A DNA stretch of 51,278 nt from an uncultured Pseudoflavonifractor sp. (lineage in GTDB: Bacteria > Bacillota > Clostridia > Oscillospirales > Oscillospiraceae): the NCBI RefSeq assembly GCF_944387275.1, contig NZ_CALXEG010000020.1, positions 1 to 51,278 of the forward strand. The letters are read 5' to 3'. A program made the translations under genes and the position numbers. The notes under the pieces are model-generated. The model was not told where the DNA came from, made no database searches, and was given only the letters and a program-made list of their open reading frames with translations. Shown here piece after piece: positions 2,358 through 10,691 of the stretch (its first letter is position 1; each line of letters opens with the position of its first letter).

Positions 2358-2463
2358 GCAACGAGGCCTACAAACCGAGGACAATCCCGATCTGGATTGC
2401 CGTCATCTCTGACAGGGCGAGGGCATGGGGCGGAGAAAAACAGCAAAAAATTGGGCGAGAGTA

Positions 2464-2520
2464 TGTCAAATAGGAAAATACTGTGTTACAATGAGACAAC
2501 AGGCAATTCGAACGGGGTGA
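2464..2520 (+). promoter_or_regulatory. Candidate promoter and RBS of the ATPase/HEPN cassette
   Basis: TACAAT at 2487-2492 is preceded by TGT, giving an extended -10. The -35 region (TGTCAA, 2464-2469) is poor. A GGGGTGA ribosome site (2514-2520) sits 6 nt before the ATG at 2527. This appears to be the only promoter for the two-gene unit. Confidence 0.5.
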
Positions 2521-2526
2521 AACGAG

Positions 2527-5500
2527 ATGGAAACCTTTCAAGATATCATCCTCAGTGAAATCCATGTAGGGGACCGAGTCCAGATCTGCTACGGGCAGCA
2601 GGGGGCCCAGACCGCCACAGGTACGGTGCTGCGCATCAACGAGGTGCTGATCCACCTGAAAAGCGAGAAGAGCGAGCCCAGAATCCTGCTGAATCAGATC
2701 ATCTCCTTTGATATCCTTCCGCCTGAAGAGGAGCAGCAGGACGGCGGCGGGGAGGAGCAGCAGGATCCTGCGCCCGATGTCCGGACGGTGCCTGCGGGGC
2801 ATGTGCTGGCCGACCTGCGGGCGGAGCTGAAGCGGGAAGAGAAGCCTCTGGACGTCAAGACGGCGGCCAAGCTGCTGCGGAAGGCGCTGAAGGAGGAGCC
2901 CAAGACCGTCCGGGAGACGGCCGGCGGCGTGCTGGACAGCCTGGAGAACGCCGTGGCCAACCACACCCTGGCGGACAAGCTCCACGACCTGAAGGCCCGG
3001 ACCAACCGGATCGAGCAGACGGCGGAGACAGCGTCGTCCAAGGCGCTGCTGGCGGTCCTGATGGGCGTGCTGGAGCTGGGCGCGGGGGAGTATCAGACGG
3101 CGGCCCTCTGCTTTTCCCAGGCTGAGTGGCCGGAGCTGGCGGCCGAGTGCCTGATCCAGGCCGAAAAACCGGAGGAGGCCCTGCCGCTGCTGGTCCAGTC
3201 GGCCCTCAGCGGGCGCTGCCTCCAGTACGCGGGCTGCCGGGTCCTGGGCGAGGGGTGCCGTAAGGCGCGGAATCTCTCCCCCATCATCCGGGGCAAGGAG
3301 CAGACCGAGGACGAGGAGACCCTCCACCGGCTGCTGCTGGCCGCCGCTGTGGCAGCGGAGCGAGAGAGCGTGGAGCTGGAAGGGGATGCCTCCGCCGCGT
3401 CCGGTGAGCTGCTGGACGCCCTGTTCTATGCGCTGCCCGCCTCCTGGAAGGAGCTGAGCCAGGAGGTGCGTGACCGGGAGGAGCAGATGGCCCAGGCAGA
3501 GCTGGAGCGCCAGAAGGAGGAGGCGGCGCCCGCGGAGACGGCGGCCCTGACCACCACCATCCAGAATTTCTTCCCGGAGAAGCGGTACGGCTTCCTGCGG
3601 GCATACCCGGACAATATCTTTTTCTATGTCACCCAGGTGACCGACCAGGACCTGGCGCTGCGGCAGCTCCTGGCAAAAGGGAACTACAGCGGCCTGGAGG
3701 TGTCCTACGAGCGGGGGACCAACCACCTGGGCGCTCTGGCGGCCTCCAACATCCGCCTGACCGAGCGGGGCCAGCAGGAGGCGGACAAGCGGCTGGGGCG
3801 GATCGGCCGGGATGAGTTTCAGCAGGGCACCCTTCTGTTCTATCAGAAGGACAAGACCTGGGGCAAGGTGGTGGACCTGAAGGGCAACAAGTGGTCCTTC
3901 AAGGACAACGCCCTGGTAGACCCCTGGCTGGAGGAGTACTGCCACACCAACCTCTTTTTCAGTGAGCAGGAGGTGTTGTTCCGTCTGGACACCCTGAAGG
4001 ACGGCAAACAGGTGGTAGGCCAGATGATGCGGGAGCAGCCCTTCAATGACGCGGAGATCAGCTATCTCCAGCTCAAGCCCTCGGCAGAGCGGCTGGAGCA
4101 GTGGGAGGTCTTCAAGGCGGCGCTGGAGGCGCCCCCCAAGCAGGATGAGTCCGACCCCTATGAGGACTGCCCCTATGAGGCCCTGGAGCCGGCCAAGGAC
4201 CTGCCCGGCGGGGAGAAGAACCAGACCCCGCTGAGCAAGCGGGTGCAGCCCGTGTCCGAGGAGAAGCAGAGCGACGACAGCGTCCAGAAGCCGGCGGAGC
4301 CCGCTCAGCCCGCGCCCGCCCCGGCGCCCAAGCCGGAGGACGAGCCGGTGCGCAAGTCCACGGCCTGGAAGCTGGGGGACCCCTGCCCCAACTATGACAA
4401 GGCCCACCAGCTGCTGATCCGGGGCAATCTGGAGACGGCGCTGTACTACTACAAGCAGGCCCTGGAGCGGGAGGAAAAGCTGGAGTCCACGGTGGCGGAT
4501 CTGATCGGCCTCTATAACCGCCTGCCCGACAGCTGGCAGGACGCGGTGGACCTGTTCAACCACTACCGGGACTACCTCACCAAGGAGAAGGCCCTGAACC
4601 TGGAGATCCAGATCTACCAGAAGGGCAAGACCACCGACGCCCTGGAGCACCTGTGCACCGTGCTGGAGCAGGCCATCCGGGCCGCCAACCGGGGCAGCCG
4701 CAAGTCCCACCACATGATCCAGAAGGCCCAGACCTACATCCGTCTGGGCCGGTATGGCGACGCCCTGGAGACCTACCGCAGGTGGCGGGACCTGTACAGC
4801 CAGTACCGCAGCACGCCCGAGGGCGACCGGCTGGCCAAGGCCGAGCTGTCGGTGAAGAAGGGGGAGGCCACCTGCTACTACCACCAGGGCGAGTTCGCCG
4901 AGGCCGAACGGCTGGCCAAGGAGGTGCTGCGCCTCTATCCCGCCGATCCCATCGCCAACGGCATCCTGGACCGCACCCTGGGGGTGGGCACCTATACCCA
5001 GGACGAGTTCAATGACGAGAATTTTGACGAGGATGACGACGGGGACGAGGTGAGCGACGGCCTGCTCAACGGCTATGTGCTCTCCCGTATCCGCAATCTG
5101 GACCTGGCCGCGGTGGTCAAGAGCCACATCTCCGCCGGCCACTATATCGGCACGCCTTCTGAGGCCGTGCAGGAGATCCGGAAGCAGGTCGACGCCGGCG
5201 GCGGCTCGGCCAAGGCCCGCAGCGACAAACTCTTTGCGGCGGCCAGGATCGTGGACGAGCTGCTGGACCGGTATGAGCCGGGGCGCAGATACGGCGCCAT
5301 GTGGAAAAAGAAGCTCACGGTCCAGAACGAGAAGATCTATGCCTCCCGGGCCATTGCGGCCTGGGGCGACTACATGGTGGACAACGCCAATCAGCTGGAC
5401 ACCGCCCGGTTCGCCTACCTGTCCTGCCTGCCCAACCTGGGCCCCAGGGACCGCTGCTTCCGGGACTCGGTGTACTGTTTCCTCCGGTCCTACACCATGG

Positions 5501-7755
5501 GCCAGCGGGAGCTGTCCAACTTCATCTCCGCCCAGCAGAACGCCAGCAGCCACGACGGACTGGACTTCAGCTTTCTCTCCGAGCGGAGCCTGGCCGACGC
5601 CCTGTACCCTGAGTTCCTGGTGGGCGTGCTGCGCCTGATGCGGGAGCTGCGGGGCCGCCGCCTGGACTTCAAGCAGGGCCTGTACGACGCCAAGCCCCTC
5701 CGGGAGGGCCTGCTGCGCCAGCTGGGCCGGGTGCTGGAGGAGCCGGTGACCATGCGGGAGGACATGGCCGATTTCAGCCGCCTTCTCAACCGGGCGGGCG
5801 ACCTGCTGCGCAAGCGGGAGGAGGAGCTGGCGCGGCATATGGAGGAGTGTGCCCGCCACGTGATGGGCAGCCTGGAGGAGGAGCGCAGCTTCCACGAGCT
5901 CCAGTCCTCCGACTGGGCCAACTGGCTGGACGCCACCGACTACGCCCGGCTCCAGGAGTTCTGCGACATCCTGCGCCGGGAGTGCGACTACCACAAGGGC
6001 ATGGACTTCGAGCACCGGGCCGAGTGCCTCAAGGACACCATCCAGCGCATCGACCAGCTCAACGCCGCCATCCGGGAGACCCCCACCCGCCTGTCCTTTG
6101 ACGTCTACGTCCCCGCCCTGGAGGACATCCGCAGCCAGCTCACCGAGCAGCAGACCAATATGTATGAAATGCTGCCGCCCCAGCTGACCTGGGAGCTGTC
6201 CACGCCGCCCCACTACGACGCCAGCGGCGAGGTGCGGGTGTACCTGACTGTGTCCAACCAGCGCAACCACCAGACCGCCGACACCATCGAGTACGAGGGC
6301 GACGGCGAGGACATCCTGTCCTGCCGGCCCGAGGACGACCGGGGCAGCATCAACGGCCTGCGGGGCGACACCCACACGGAGGTCATCCTGCTGGTGCGGC
6401 TCACCGAGCAGGCCCGGCAGATGGGCAGCTTCACCCTGAACCTGCGGTACAGCTACCGCTATAACCGTACCGCCAAGGACTTCACCAAGAGCGAGCCCCA
6501 GGTGACAGAGCTGACCTGCGTGGTGCGGACGGAGCAGTTCCGCAAGCTGGCCAACCCCTACACCAAGAACGTGGGCAGCCCCATGCACGACGAGACCATG
6601 TTCTACGGCAGAAACGACGAGCTGGACCGGATCTGCGGCAAGATCTGCCCCCCCGACGCGCCCCCCAGCTACAGCCACGGCATCGCCATCTACGGCCAGA
6701 CCCGCACGGGCAAGAGCAGCCTGCTCTACCACCTGAAGCGCCGCCTGAGCCAGCCAGCCTACCGGGACCGGGTGGTGATCTGGGAGGTCCAGAACATGGG
6801 CGACATCCTGATGGACAGCGGAAACGCGGTGGTGGGCTTCTTCTACCACATCCTCAACATCGCCCAGGAGGCCTTCGACAACCGGCCCGAGCTGGCCGCC
6901 GCTCTGGCCGAGCGGGAGGTGGAGAACCCGGCGGAAAAGATCCTGGGGCGGCCGGAGTACGCCTCGGTGCTCTTTGCCAACTACATGCGCCAGCTGGACC
7001 GGATCTTCCGGGAGCGGGGCATGGTGGTGGTGGTGCTGCTGGACGAGTTCACCTACCTGCACACCAAGATCAAGGACGGCACCATCACCAGCGACTTCAT
7101 GAAGTTCTGGAAGGGATTTCTGCAGAACTACTGCGTGTTCGCCGTGGTGGCCGGACAGGACGACATGCCCGACTTCATCCGGGAGAACCAGAACGAGTTC
7201 GCCTGCATGGAGCTGATGCGCATCACCTACCTGGAGGAGGAGCCGGCCAAGCAGCTCATCCGGGAGCCCCTGATGCGGGAGAACCACCTGGCCGAGACCC
7301 CCTTCCGGGAGGGCGCGGTGGACACGCTGTACAACCTGACGGCGGGCAGCGCCTACCTGACCATCCTGCTGTGCGCCAACCTGGTGGACTACATGAACGC
7401 CAGCGGCGCGGCCATGGCGGGGGAGGCCATCGTGAAGAGCTTCCTGCGGACCCGGGCCTTTGGGCGGATGTCCTTCCTGGACGAGTCTATCTTTGAACCC
7501 CAGCTCAACGAGCGGGGCCGGCCGGAGCTGAAGGAGATCAACGAGAAGATCCTGCTGGCAGTGGCCCGGATCTCCCGGACCACCGGGCAGGCCAGCCAGC
7601 GGGAGATCTGCGCCGCCCTGCCCGGGGAAGAGGGCGTGAAAAACGCCCTGGACCGGCTGGTGCAGCGCAATGTGCTGGAACAGGTGACCGGCGACGCCTA
7701 CCGCATTGAGGTCAAGCTGCTGGAGCGCTGGCTGCTGGAGACAAGAGGGGAGTAG
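2527..7755 (+). CDS. Large multidomain STAND-type ATPase with cold-shock-like and TPR regions (putative conflict/defence protein)
   Basis: 1742 residues; I recognise the architecture but no named family. In order: a small barrel at about 10-65 (HVGDRVQICYG...TGTVLRIN, SH3/Sm-like); a helical, charged region to 340; a cold-shock-like segment at about 342-412 with RNP1-like KRYGFL and RNP2-like NIFFYV; a second such segment at about 430-500 (DKTWGKVVD); a proline/acid-rich linker at 535-612; TPR-like helices at about 615-815 (GRYGDALETYRRW, GEFAEAERLAKEVL); an acidic stretch near 828-842; more helices to 1185; a beta-sandwich at about 1185-1335; then a P-loop NTPase with YGRNDELDRI near 1360, Walker A GQTRTGKSS at 1390-1398 and Walker B VVVVLLDEF with D1506/E1507. 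A winged-helix-like end (QREICAALPGEEGVKNALDRL) closes it. There is no signal peptide or membrane segment. The stop is 2 nt before the next ATPase gene, so the two are translationally coupled. Nucleic-acid sensing is inferred from the barrels. Confidence 0.8.
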   Translation: METFQDIILSEIHVGDRVQICYGQQGAQTATGTVLRINEVLIHLKSEKSEPRILLNQIISFDILPPEEEQQDGGGEEQQDPAPDVRTVPAGHVLADLRAELKREEKPLDVKTAAKLLRKALKEEPKTVRETAGGVLDSLENAVANHTLADKLHDLKARTNRIEQTAETASSKALLAVLMGVLELGAGEYQTAALCFSQAEWPELAAECLIQAEKPEEALPLLVQSALSGRCLQYAGCRVLGEGCRKARNLSPIIRGKEQTEDEETLHRLLLAAAVAAERESVELEGDASAASGELLDALFYALPASWKELSQEVRDREEQMAQAELERQKEEAAPAETAALTTTIQNFFPEKRYGFLRAYPDNIFFYVTQVTDQDLALRQLLAKGNYSGLEVSYERGTNHLGALAASNIRLTERGQQEADKRLGRIGRDEFQQGTLLFYQKDKTWGKVVDLKGNKWSFKDNALVDPWLEEYCHTNLFFSEQEVLFRLDTLKDGKQVVGQMMREQPFNDAEISYLQLKPSAERLEQWEVFKAALEAPPKQDESDPYEDCPYEALEPAKDLPGGEKNQTPLSKRVQPVSEEKQSDDSVQKPAEPAQPAPAPAPKPEDEPVRKSTAWKLGDPCPNYDKAHQLLIRGNLETALYYYKQALEREEKLESTVADLIGLYNRLPDSWQDAVDLFNHYRDYLTKEKALNLEIQIYQKGKTTDALEHLCTVLEQAIRAANRGSRKSHHMIQKAQTYIRLGRYGDALETYRRWRDLYSQYRSTPEGDRLAKAELSVKKGEATCYYHQGEFAEAERLAKEVLRLYPADPIANGILDRTLGVGTYTQDEFNDENFDEDDDGDEVSDGLLNGYVLSRIRNLDLAAVVKSHISAGHYIGTPSEAVQEIRKQVDAGGGSAKARSDKLFAAARIVDELLDRYEPGRRYGAMWKKKLTVQNEKIYASRAIAAWGDYMVDNANQLDTARFAYLSCLPNLGPRDRCFRDSVYCFLRSYTMGQRELSNFISAQQNASSHDGLDFSFLSERSLADALYPEFLVGVLRLMRELRGRRLDFKQGLYDAKPLREGLLRQLGRVLEEPVTMREDMADFSRLLNRAGDLLRKREEELARHMEECARHVMGSLEEERSFHELQSSDWANWLDATDYARLQEFCDILRRECDYHKGMDFEHRAECLKDTIQRIDQLNAAIRETPTRLSFDVYVPALEDIRSQLTEQQTNMYEMLPPQLTWELSTPPHYDASGEVRVYLTVSNQRNHQTADTIEYEGDGEDILSCRPEDDRGSINGLRGDTHTEVILLVRLTEQARQMGSFTLNLRYSYRYNRTAKDFTKSEPQVTELTCVVRTEQFRKLANPYTKNVGSPMHDETMFYGRNDELDRICGKICPPDAPPSYSHGIAIYGQTRTGKSSLLYHLKRRLSQPAYRDRVVIWEVQNMGDILMDSGNAVVGFFYHILNIAQEAFDNRPELAAALAEREVENPAEKILGRPEYASVLFANYMRQLDRIFRERGMVVVVLLDEFTYLHTKIKDGTITSDFMKFWKGFLQNYCVFAVVAGQDDMPDFIRENQNEFACMELMRITYLEEEPAKQLIREPLMRENHLAETPFREGAVDTLYNLTAGSAYLTILLCANLVDYMNASGAAMAGEAIVKSFLRTRAFGRMSFLDESIFEPQLNERGRPELKEINEKILLAVARISRTTGQASQREICAALPGEEGVKNALDRLVQRNVLEQVTGDAYRIEVKLLERWLLETRGE

Positions 7756-7757
7756 AG

Positions 7758-9290
7758 ATGAGAAAGACAAATCGCTTTCTGGCGGGCCCCCAGGTGTCCG
7801 GGGACTCCTTCTTCGGGCGGCGGAGCGAGCTGGACCGGCTGGGCGAGTGGATGTTCGGCAGCTCTCCCTGTTACGGGCTGTCCATCGTGGGCCCCCACCG
7901 CATCGGAAAGAGTTCCCTGGTGGCCCAGGTGCTGCGGGAGCACGCCGGGCAGGGCAATGTGCTGGTGATCCGGATGAACCTGGCCGAATACCCGGACGCG
8001 GCCTCCTTCTGGTACATCTTTGCCGAGGAGCTGGAGGGAGCGCTGCGCCGGCAGGGCGTCTGGGACGATGAGCTGGAGCGCGCCCGGGCAAAGCTGGAAT
8101 GCGTGGCGGCCAAGGCGGAGAACTGGTATATGCGCATGCGCCAGCCCCTGACGGCCATGCTGAGAAAGACGCAGACGCAGGGCCTGCGGGTGCTCTGGGT
8201 GCTGGACGAGTTTGACGCGGCCAGGTGGGTGCTGGACGAGAAGTGCTACTTCCAGTTCATCCGCACCCTGTCCTCGGAGACGGACAAGTACAATATGACC
8301 ACGGTCCTCATCTCCCGCAGCCCCGTGGCGGAGATCGAGCGCAGCGCCGACGGCATCTCCACCTTCCACGGGGTGTTCACCACCTTTCCCCTGTACGGCT
8401 TCAGCGACCAGGATATGGACGAGTTCTATGGGGCCCTGACGGATTACGACATCTTCCCCGACGAGGAGATGAAGGGCCGCCTGGCGTACTACTGCGGCCG
8501 GATCCCCTATCTGCTCTCCATGTTCGCCCGGGAGATGGCGGAGGACCAGATGCAGCAGCGGACGGTGGACGCCGACCGGGTGGACGAGATCTTTGCCCGG
8601 CGGCTGAGGGGCGACATTGAGGACTTCTACATAACCCTCCGCAACCGTTTTCAGGAGGACCACCAGCTGGAGGCCATGCTGGGGGCGCTGTTCGGGCCCA
8701 TGACGCTGGAGGAGCAGCGGAACGTGAGCGTGCTGGAGCAGCGGGGCTATCTGAGCGAGGACGAGAACGGATATTATTCCATGACCCGGGACTTCACCAT
8801 ATATCTGGAGCTGCAGCAGACGAATATTCCCCTGTTTGAGACGCTCATCCGGGCGGAACGGCGGCTCAAGGAGATGATCCAGAGGGAGTTTCCCGTCATG
8901 GCGGAGGTGCGCTACCAGGCGGGCAAACCCAAAGAGGAGGAGATCCGCCGGTGGGCAACGGCCCTGGGCCCCTACCAGAGCGCCGGCCTGCCGGGATATC
9001 AGAATTTCCTGGAAAAGACCTACACCAGCTGCCGCACCCTCTCCAACTGGCAGGAGAATCCCTCTTTCCTGGATGGGATCACCCTGGGTACGGTGGTCAG
9101 CATCATCAATACCAGCTGGGAGGACCGCTTTGCCAAGTATTTTCCCAAGGAAGGCGGCGACGGGTGGAAGGACCGGCTGGAGGAGTTCCACCAGATCCGC
9201 AACCCTGTCATGCACGCCAACGGACACCTGATCCCTCAGGATGTTCTCAAGCGGGTGCTGGAGAGCTGCCAGTGCATCTGCGGGCTGTGA
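7758..9290 (+). CDS. STAND-type ATPase with C-terminal Swt1-like HEPN RNase domain
   Basis: 510 residues. The N-terminal P-loop domain has an entry motif FFGRRSELDRL (about 18-28), Walker A GPHRIGKSS (45-53) and Walker B VLWVLDEFD (D150, E151); a sensor-like ISRS follows at 185-188. It resembles the partner's ATPase and NACHT/STAND-like AAA_16 proteins. A winged-helix-like linker (about 300-350) follows. Residues 355-510 look like a Swt1/MAE_18760-type HEPN domain: FETLIRAERRLKEMI at the start, then a helical core with WEDRFAKYF, then HQIRNPVMHANGHL. R481 and H486 form the Rx4H motif with N482, the metal-independent RNase signature. ATG at 7758 is preceded by GAGGGGAG. A strong terminator follows. 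Inferred role: RNA cleavage switched by the ATPase modules, as in abortive-infection systems. Confidence 0.8.
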   Translation: MRKTNRFLAGPQVSGDSFFGRRSELDRLGEWMFGSSPCYGLSIVGPHRIGKSSLVAQVLREHAGQGNVLVIRMNLAEYPDAASFWYIFAEELEGALRRQGVWDDELERARAKLECVAAKAENWYMRMRQPLTAMLRKTQTQGLRVLWVLDEFDAARWVLDEKCYFQFIRTLSSETDKYNMTTVLISRSPVAEIERSADGISTFHGVFTTFPLYGFSDQDMDEFYGALTDYDIFPDEEMKGRLAYYCGRIPYLLSMFAREMAEDQMQQRTVDADRVDEIFARRLRGDIEDFYITLRNRFQEDHQLEAMLGALFGPMTLEEQRNVSVLEQRGYLSEDENGYYSMTRDFTIYLELQQTNIPLFETLIRAERRLKEMIQREFPVMAEVRYQAGKPKEEEIRRWATALGPYQSAGLPGYQNFLEKTYTSCRTLSNWQENPSFLDGITLGTVVSIINTSWEDRFAKYFPKEGGDGWKDRLEEFHQIRNPVMHANGHLIPQDVLKRVLESCQCICGL

Positions 9291-9310
9291 GGCTGAATGG
9301 CCTGAGACAG

Positions 9311-9352
9311 TGCAAAAAAGAGACCTGCCTGCCGGCAGGTCTCTTTTTTGCA
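9311..9352. terminator. Bidirectional terminator between convergent genes
   Basis: A perfect 19-bp inverted repeat (9311-9329 with 9334-9352, 4-nt loop) with a six-base A run on one side and a T run on the other. It serves both the HEPN gene (plus) and the ABC permease gene (minus), whose stop codon begins 2 nt away. Confidence 0.9.
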
Positions 9353-9353
9353 C

Positions 9354-10691
9354 TTATTCGCTCTTGATGGCCTCCAGGGCGGGGATCTGTACCGCCTTGT
9401 TGGCGGGGTAGTACCCGGAGCCGAGGCCGATGAACACGGAGAACACAATGGCAAACAGCAGAAGCCACGGCGGGATGACGGACACCCGGTTCACCGTCTC
9501 GCCGCCGATGATGGCGGGGAGCAGGTTCTCCACCGACGGCCCAAGCGAGACCAGGTTGATGATCACCGAGGTGATAAAGCTGATGACGCAGCCGATGAGG
9601 CCGCCGATGAGGCCGATGGCACCGGCCTCGGAGAGGAACATGACCCGGATATCGGTGACATAGCAGCCCAGGGACTTCATGATGCCGATCTCCCGGGTCC
9701 GCTCGGAGATGGACATGATCATGGTGTTGGTGATGCCCAGGGCGGCCACGAACAGGGAGATGGCGCCCAGGCCGCCCAGCATCATCTGCTTCTGCCGGGC
9801 CTCCTTCTCCATGGGCTTGCGGATGCTCTCCATGGAGTCGGTGGAGTAGCCCATGGACCGGATCTCCTGCTCCACCGGCTCCACCATGTTGATGCCCGAG
9901 ACCTTGACCATGATGGAGTCGTAGGGCAGGGACTTTTTCTTGTTGCCCTGGACCTTGTCCAGCATCTTGCGCAGGTCGGCCAGGCTGACCATGATGCCGT
10001 CGGAGGTCTCGCCGCCCTTGGAGTAGTCCTCCTTGGTGACACCGGAGGGCTTGACCGTAAAGGTGAACTTGCTGCCCTGGGACTCGATCTCCATGGTATA
10101 GGTGGCCTTCATGGCGTCAAAGTAGGGGGGCGGCACGTCGGTCATGTTGCCGTTCTCATCCCAGTTGCCGCTCCACCGGTCCACCATGTTGCGGCCCTCG
10201 GGGCGGAGCTTGTCCCGGAAATTGTAGGCCAGGTACTGGCCCACGATCACCTCGCCGCTCTTGGCGGGTGCGCCGCCCTCCAGCAGCTTGTAGCCCATTT
10301 TCTCCACCTCGCCGGTGTCCAGACCCACCACGGTGGTCCAGTCGGCGATATAGCGCTGGCCGGTGCCGGTGATGAGGGTGATGGAGTCGGCCTCCAGCCG
10401 CTGCTTGGGGGTGACGGCCTCCACACCGTAGATAGAGCGGAGCCGCTTGACCAGCGGGTCGTCCAGCTTGTTCTTGCCCCGACCGCCCTGGGGGGCGTTG
10501 ACGGTGATGATGGTCAGATCGCCCATCTCGGAGAGCAGCCGCTCCTGGGTCTCCTTCATGCCGATGCCCAGGGACACCATGATGACGATGGAGCAGCAGC
10601 CGATGAGCACGCCCAGCACGGTGAGAAAGGTGCGGGATTTCCGGCGCATCAGATTCTGCAGGCACATGCGGAGGAGATCGTTGCGCTTCAC
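9354..10691 (-). CDS. ABC transporter permease, MacB/FtsX type
   Basis: 445 residues, an inner-membrane subunit of a MacB/LolE-like exporter or mechanotransmitter. The start MKRNDLLRMCLQNLMRRKSR is the usual FtsX/MacB N-terminus, followed by a membrane helix at about 19-45 and a large extracytoplasmic domain of about 240 residues. A C-terminal trio of helices includes MIMSISERTREIGIMKSLG, the cytoplasmic coupling loop that contacts the ATPase. The start is GTG at 10691, three bases after the upstream stop, with GGGGAGGGATGAG inside the upstream gene as ribosome site. The operon order is ATPase, CARDB protein, permease. The substrate is unknown; in Firmicutes such sets often handle antimicrobial peptides or envelope stress (family knowledge). 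Confidence 0.88.
   Translation of the reverse strand: MKRNDLLRMCLQNLMRRKSRTFLTVLGVLIGCCSIVIMVSLGIGMKETQERLLSEMGDLTIITVNAPQGGRGKNKLDDPLVKRLRSIYGVEAVTPKQRLEADSITLITGTGQRYIADWTTVVGLDTGEVEKMGYKLLEGGAPAKSGEVIVGQYLAYNFRDKLRPEGRNMVDRWSGNWDENGNMTDVPPPYFDAMKATYTMEIESQGSKFTFTVKPSGVTKEDYSKGGETSDGIMVSLADLRKMLDKVQGNKKKSLPYDSIMVKVSGINMVEPVEQEIRSMGYSTDSMESIRKPMEKEARQKQMMLGGLGAISLFVAALGITNTMIMSISERTREIGIMKSLGCYVTDIRVMFLSEAGAIGLIGGLIGCVISFITSVIINLVSLGPSVENLLPAIIGGETVNRVSVIPPWLLLFAIVFSVFIGLGSGYYPANKAVQIPALEAIKSE

Follow-up and report, generated by a model that had tools for sequence, protein, structure and literature searches.

Do two adjacent genes near the start of a clostridial contig encode an antiviral system? 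The stretch analyzed here (the window) is 51,278 nucleotides (nt) of DNA from an uncultured Pseudoflavonifractor sp. (Oscillospiraceae), positions 1 to 51,278 of contig NZ_CALXEG010000020.1 in assembly GCF_944387275.1. The initial annotation, made from the sequence, had proposed that the two genes, here called P1 and P2, form an undescribed defence system of ATPases and a HEPN ribonuclease (RNase), an interpretation that our analysis partly supports. We lean modestly towards reading the pair as a laterally spread, RNA-sensing and RNA-cutting abortive antiviral alarm with two predicted ATPases.

P1 (positions 2527..7755, + strand) is an open reading frame (ORF) of 1742 amino acids (aa) with homologues, and P2 (7758..9290, + strand) is one of 510 aa; the gap between them is 2 nt, confirming the two adjacent genes initially reported. 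A pattern scan for P1 in a collection of 84,980 species returned ten loci, with P2 directly after P1 in all of them. Searches with P2 found P1 directly before it in 7/7 assessable genomes (G001, G483, G718, G680, G841, G791 and G942), while an eighth, G795, could not be judged as its contig stops inside P2. Since locus L013 and genome G001 are one contig, this gives 17 distinct loci including the window, and P1 is immediately upstream of P2 at 17/17 assessable loci, with gaps of -5 to 36 nt for the start codons that we chose. The survey for conserved pairing that had been suggested at the outset therefore came out positive. Distances among P1 sequences correlate with those among P2 sequences (r 0.93; 0/2000 permutations as high), which indicates inheritance as a unit and does not in itself show contact between the proteins.

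Downstream of P2 is an intrinsic terminator hairpin (about 9309..9354, + strand; 21 bp with an A-U-rich base, -37.7 kcal/mol, z -9.56). The terminator and the 2-nt gap fit a single message, from which both proteins would be produced in step. One promoter and one terminator had been claimed; the terminator stands, and the promoter-like site found by consensus scan (2463..2492, + strand; ATGTCA, 18 nt, TACAAT, with TG ahead of the second hexamer) is weak, with 9/12 matches to the sigma-70 consensus. Five such sites occur in the 12 kb scanned, compared with a shuffle mean of 1.5.

P2 begins with an ATPase core and a winged-helix-like part (residues 1-352; 7758..8813, + strand). AAA_16 matches over its Pfam cut-off, and a fold search with the AlphaFold2 model of P2 (pLDDT 88.9, pTM 0.86) matched about residues 1-350 to the archaeal STAND-type ATPases 2qen and 2fna, Cdc6/ORC and CED-4. 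Walker A (GPHRIGKSS) and the DEFD motif are intact in the window; K51, D150-E151 and S186-R187 occupy conserved alignment columns, and the GK[ST] motif is kept at 16/17 loci. The exception is L040, whose P2 relative (L040:10025-11578) has eroded Walker A (GIGKDD) and Walker B (IIEEFD) motifs, retains RLAPAH and resembles the inactive effector-bearing STAND protein outlined in the 2021 description of nSTAND2 systems (PMC8195603, passages on that system).

Residues 356-510 of P2 (8823..9287, + strand) are predicted to form a Swt1-like HEPN domain that cuts RNA. The Rx4H motif, R481-N-P-V-M-H486 (9198..9215, + strand), was found at 17/17 loci, and R481 and H486 are invariant in 28/28 HEPN-bearing P2 homologues (alignment A6). 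A6 combines the window sequence with nine loci and 18 of the 31 sequences that the P2 homologue search returned. Excluded from the start were the copy of the window itself (P0001), near-duplicates (P0004, P0020-22, P0026), fragments (P0006-8), P0017 (no motif) and P0025, P0027 and P0028 (no HEPN). Ten diverse C-terminal slices share only 20-31% identity with that of the window. HEPN_Swt1 (PF18731) is the sole Pfam match of the window slice (E 8.9e-4, under cut-off); it also matches 7/10 slices at E <= 1 (best 7e-5) and 8/23 P2 homologues of alignment A1 at E <= 0.1, and four further HEPN-named or Abi models match one or two slices each. P0031, a P2 homologue (E 6.8e-20), has no HEPN_Swt1 annotation itself; by a count made by eye, 91 of the 120 listed of its 327 relatives carry it as a precomputed Pfam match. 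The C-terminal part is helical in the AlphaFold2 model, and the ATPase part filled the fold searches with the whole model. Both domains initially assigned to P2, a P-loop NTPase and a C-terminal HEPN, are thus upheld, the latter at the level of sequence.

What follows the P2 ATPase is not uniform. The C-termini of P0025, P0027 and P0028 gave nothing credible in Pfam, and effector exchange in these proteins is possible. An extra C-terminal segment is present in P0016, P0019, P0023, P0024, P0029, L019, L029, L038 and L042, and for the four of these scanned (P0016, P0029, L019, L029) it likewise gave nothing credible in Pfam. The differing C-termini and the extra segments would both fit an exchangeable effector module. 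The P2 relatives L019:5064-6890, L038:10687-12483, P0016, P0019, P0023 and P0024 are about 600 aa long, with the segment lying beyond HEPN.

P1 has the order barrel, TPR, OB, OB, TPR and STAND-type ATPase (all features on the + strand). Folds of RNA-binding type lie in its N-terminal third, for which an AlphaFold2 model of residues 1-564 was used (pLDDT 82.9, pTM 0.46, the low pTM leaving the placement of the domains unsure). Residues 1-64 (2527..2718) are modelled as a small SH3/Sm-like barrel of one helix and five strands. Its profile matched assorted SH3-like barrels (best E 0.0079), so that Sm-like over other SH3-like barrels is a preference; the LSM family profile matches P1 of the distant relative L029 weakly (E 0.0027, under cut-off). 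After TPR-type helices in the model (residues 92-333; 2800..3525) comes a cold-shock-type OB fold (residues 341-411; 3547..3759), recognized by its strand and helix order in the model and by a profile built from six loci. Every one of the 23 PDB sequences that this profile hit at E <= 1 (best 1.9e-5) bears a cold-shock, CSD or UNR name; the Pfam CSD score of 13.2 does not reach its cut-off of 27. A second OB fold (residues 432-502; 3820..4032) is seen in the model. Foldseek with the same model found nothing at E <= 1e-3. Its best 50 rows include many cold-shock proteins (TM by target 0.61-0.82), Hfq (1kq2 0.71, 4v2s 0.65) and, in row 42, an Hfq-RNA complex (E 0.075), along with Mpa/ARC-type ATPases, S1 and TPR proteins.

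Further along P1, residues 697-808 (4615..4950) are TPR repeats, with Pfam TPR_12, TPR_2, TPR_19 and TPR_14 over cut-off (matches within 697-810). The ATPase core (residues 1359-1546; 6601..7164) has Walker A GQTRTGKSS (K1396) and Walker B DEF (1506-1508); K1396 and D1506-E1507 are invariant in 13/13 aligned proteins, and Walker A is present at 17/17 loci. Matches to Pfam ATPase_2 and AAA_16 are under cut-off, while nSTAND1 matches 6/13 P1 relatives at E <= 0.1, two of them over cut-off. From sequence, then, P1 is a predicted STAND-type ATPase, as the initial annotation had it. Its barrel and TPR-like helices are borne out as well; of its two cold-shock-like segments, the first is supported by profile and model and the second by the model as an OB fold. 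A putative beta-sandwich (residues 1216-1340; 6172..6546), a sequence impression, is unconfirmed, the best PDB sequence match of about this region having E 0.21.

The length of P1 varies among its relatives. In the giants L029:3301-9561 (2086 aa) and L042:224-6133 (1969 aa), several Sm-like and OB-like units appear by eye to stand in series before the ATPase, and the several Sm-like units in L029 suggest an array of changing length. At L044:137-5407, in a draft genome, P1 is split into two ORFs near the N-terminus.

Does the pair simply belong, as its clostridial branch, to the dual-STAND (nSTAND2) system predicted by Kaur et al. 2021 (eLife 10:e70394; PMC8195603)? This is a question of membership and overlaps with the antiviral alarm that we favour. 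The passages of that paper on nSTAND2 describe a predicted operon in which two genes each encode an nSTAND2 NTPase and the inactive NTPase carries a variable effector, commonly GT4 or HEPN; the system is presented as mobile and predicted to counter invaders, and a conserved arginine finger would be expected in both NTPases. Our pair also consists of two adjacent STAND-type genes, one with HEPN; nSTAND2 matches 11/23 P2 homologues at E <= 0.1 (best 3e-6), its Pfam model PF20702 is annotated on 19 of the 120 listed of the 327 P0031 relatives, P0031 included (a count by eye), and the ATPase site of P2 is eroded in L040. Yet P2 of the window scores 20.7 bits against a PF20702 cut-off of 24, the model does not match P1 at E <= 1, P1 relatives are nSTAND1-like, and P2 retains GK[ST] at the other 16 loci. 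P2 is distantly akin to nSTAND2, and because it stays under the cut-off, with P1 unmatched and the P2 site intact at 16/17 loci, we regard the pair as a variant of the nSTAND2-type kind rather than a member of that system; outright membership is conceivable and somewhat doubtful.

How the pair is distributed bears on whether it belongs to the host or moves between hosts. It was found in 1/398 genomes of a phylum sample, 2/394 of an order sample, 3/250 of a sample of the window's family, 8/189 of the family of L015's genome (Selenomonadaceae) and 1/299 of that of L014's genome (Lachnospiraceae). The query's own genome is part of every count, as are G001 in the 3/250 and two further genomes already known from the P1 scan in the 8/189. 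All of them are lower bounds, since these searches used a loose first look and E limits of 1e-20 or 1e-25, the ten-locus scan used two short patterns, and later searches added pairs that the scan had missed. In the P1 tree as well as the P2 tree, L042 (Negativicutes) and L029 (Clostridia) group as sisters (support 1.0), their classes being assigned by sampling (around L015's Selenomonadaceae genome and in the window's family, respectively), and two Ruminobacter genomes, gammaproteobacteria of the phylum Pseudomonadota, also hold the pair. By the starts of neighbouring products, named by eye, the surroundings are heptose-synthesis-type genes at L015, a phosphate-dikinase-type gene at L018 and an RNase-E-type gene at L021. 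In the window the pair is flanked by guaA and an ABC permease gene.

Within the genus, two of the three genomes seen hold the pair, and the congener G002 is without it. On the corresponding side of guaA, G002 has a carB-type gene (named by eye), and what it has nearest to the window's ABC permease matches over a part only, at 40%; as the whole flank differs, a clean empty site could not be shown. Presence in every related genome at the same chromosomal place, which the initial annotation had named among the findings that would speak against its proposal, was looked for and not found: the distribution is patchy and the places differ. Lack of a structural match to the STAND fold, another such finding, does not apply to P2, for which that fold was matched. 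The pair is laterally spread on a long scale and resident in part of the genus. A housekeeping gene of the lineage was dropped as the principal explanation, with the pair in just 3/250 genomes of the family and 1/398 of the phylum. Restriction genes adjoin the pair at L017 (type I specificity) and L029 (an EcoRI-type pair), and were recognized at only these 2/16 other loci, the neighbours having been scanned, in part, at 12/16.

Several observations weigh against a mobile antiviral alarm. GC content at third codon positions (GC3) is 0.92 for P1 and 0.88 for P2, similar to 0.91 for guaA, and so does not indicate recent arrival. The congener G001 holds the pair at the same place with 87.6% DNA identity. 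No copy was found in plasmid, phage and viral collections, where only fairly close relatives would be detectable. No defence island was seen at the window: guaA gave nothing in PADLOC, and for the ABC permease the match is confined to the LolE part of CARF-LolE models (2.6e-12). Among 10 flanking ORFs at seven other loci (L015, L016, L018, L020, L021, L022, L040), eight have no PADLOC match at 1e-5; the remaining two match kinase-type models (L022, best mad6 3.5e-34) and WYL (L040). As for the RNase, P2 of the window scores 17.6 as a whole and 20.0 as a slice against the HEPN_Swt1 cut-off of 27.5, the C-terminal sequence profile found no credible solved HEPN in the PDB, and 3/31 P2 hits (P0025, P0027, P0028) have no HEPN and one (P0017) no motif.

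Part of this evidence would suit a host stress or translation-control module, in which a cellular RNA or the state of a stalled ribosome would be sensed by P1 and RNA trimmed by P2, phages playing no part. The shared place in two congeners goes together with purifying selection (dN/dS = 0.14 for P1 and P2 alike, against G001), a point that also counts for the alarm; GC3 is host-like, the neighbours at the window are ordinary, and housekeeping proteins, too, have cold-shock-type and Hfq-like folds. We nevertheless consider such a module unlikely, given that the pair is missing from nearly all sampled relatives, occupies varied genomic places and is spread over classes and into another phylum.

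Strict two-gene pairing, a likely RNase and patchy spread are also what a selfish toxin-antitoxin-like pair would show, with P1 restraining the P2 RNase and addiction maintaining both. Antitoxins are typically small, while P1 has 1742 aa, several folds and its own ATPase; no copy of the pair was found on the plasmids and phages searched, and composition is host-like, all of which makes this quite improbable. Least credible of all is a remodelling ATPase machine whose HEPN domain binds RNA without cutting it, for which there are the inactive HEPN domains noted in Anantharaman et al. 2013 (PMC3710099, passages on HEPN) and the P2 homologues without HEPN, since R481 and H486 are invariant in 28/28 sequences in spite of the low identity of the ten C-terminal slices.

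Returning to the antiviral alarm, we infer RNA sensing, RNase activity and an antiphage function for the pair along the following lines. STAND switches assemble upon a trigger. With its barrel, OB and TPR arms, P1 would bind invader RNA, perhaps together with protein; RNA is proposed as the trigger because P1 has cold-shock-type and Hfq-like folds. Binding would allow ATP to enter the P1 ATPase, which could then join the P2 ATPase in the manner of STAND proteins, and assembly would juxtapose the P2 HEPN domains to give an active site around R481 and H486. HEPN domains act as dimers as a rule (PMC13092281, in its account of the domain), which is why assembly of P1 with P2 would be expected to unite them. 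Cleavage of bulk or target RNA could then end in growth arrest or cell death.

Some pairs have a further neighbour. In L038 and L039 a gene of the RNA-dependent RNA polymerase (RdRP) family (PF05183, over cut-off; E 7.9e-13 and 3.8e-17) and a partner gene of 365 or 382 aa adjoin the pair, and in L039 this polymerase gene is 9 nt from P2 on the same strand. Both polymerases contain DFDGD, and that of L039 is 23-30% identical to phage proteins of YonO type or with RdRP names. The RdRP/YonO-type module lies at L038:3-4334 and L039:404-4976. Without the pair beside it, this two-gene module was also seen in L048 and L049 and, in a more distant form, in the faecal phage contig L050; near the lone module of L049 is an AbiL-like gene pair (L049:853-2764; PADLOC AbiLi/AbiLii). 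Among the 189 genomes around L015's genome, PF05183 at E 1e-8 found three (G680, G727, G664) and missed G718, whose polymerase gene is clear and which we added by hand. The polymerase gene is then present in 3/8 genomes with the pair (2/8 without the addition) and 1/181 genomes without it, with a Fisher p of 2e-4 from a test made after both cases had been seen and with a hand addition that favours the link. In G664 the module and the pair are on different contigs, and G727 has the module with no pair found. The polymerase module is thus independent and sometimes joins the pair.

A bolder and rather speculative version of the alarm is a bacterial RNA-sensing inflammasome, which we think has a minor chance of being right. 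In it a giant Sm-like and cold-shock sensor, with a varying number of modules, would recognize invader RNA, recruit a second ATPase and so cluster RNA-destroying HEPN domains, and in some lineages the RdRP/YonO-type polymerase could make or amplify the trigger RNA. If true, such a polymerase-wired alarm would be the bacterial equivalent of how eukaryotic RNA silencing amplifies RNA. Few bacterial immune proteins are known to detect RNA directly. With the paired design one could test cleanly how STAND proteins signal from one gene product to another, and whether Sm and cold-shock modules, variable as they are, can stand in for each other as RNA sensors. The pair could be moved into laboratory hosts, with R481, H486 and the two Walker lysines as ready controls.

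How does the pair compare with systems already known? PADLOC recognized no known system, giving only weak matches in the ATPase parts (mad8, 2.3e-4, for P1; PDC-S27, 8.2e-4, for P2). Avs, bacterial NACHT and other STAND antiphage proteins unite an ATPase, a repeat sensor and an effector in one protein; the logic of our pair is alike, except that here a second ATPase bears the effector. The structural relatives of the P2 ATPase, 2qen/2fna, Cdc6/ORC and CED-4, have no HEPN, and ORC/Cdc6 are replication proteins. Closer in content are the HEPN proteins in Table 1 of Anantharaman et al. 2013 (PMC3710099), which lists the Swt1/Abi2 family with STAND-ATPase, TPR and S1 domains; HEPN-STAND proteins with cold-shock-like OB domains also appear in that paper's account. 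In those fusions the parts sit in one protein, whereas here they are divided over two genes with two ATPases.

The nSTAND2 system, as its passages in PMC8195603 present it, is closer in layout: in both, two neighbouring genes encode one STAND-type NTPase apiece (a fold matched here for P2 only), and a HEPN effector is shared, GT4 not being seen in our pair. The effector-bearing NTPase is eroded there, while neither of the window's two ATPase sites is, and both NTPases there are nSTAND2, while here P2 falls short of the model and P1 does not match it. Sensor arms like the barrel, OB and TPR parts of P1 go unmentioned in the nSTAND2 account of that paper. Among the literature matches listed, no title or abstract describes the exact pair, most subscription journals being outside the search. 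Undescribed, as the initial annotation thought it might be, therefore holds for the exact pair and not wholly for its kind, because the dual STAND system with HEPN or GT4 (PMC8195603) and the Swt1 HEPN combinations with STAND, TPR and S1 (PMC3710099), as far as those accounts go, precede it; defence is unproven. Each ingredient was known before, and what appears to be new is the paired design, with a predicted intact ATPase on both sides and a putative barrel-OB sensor.

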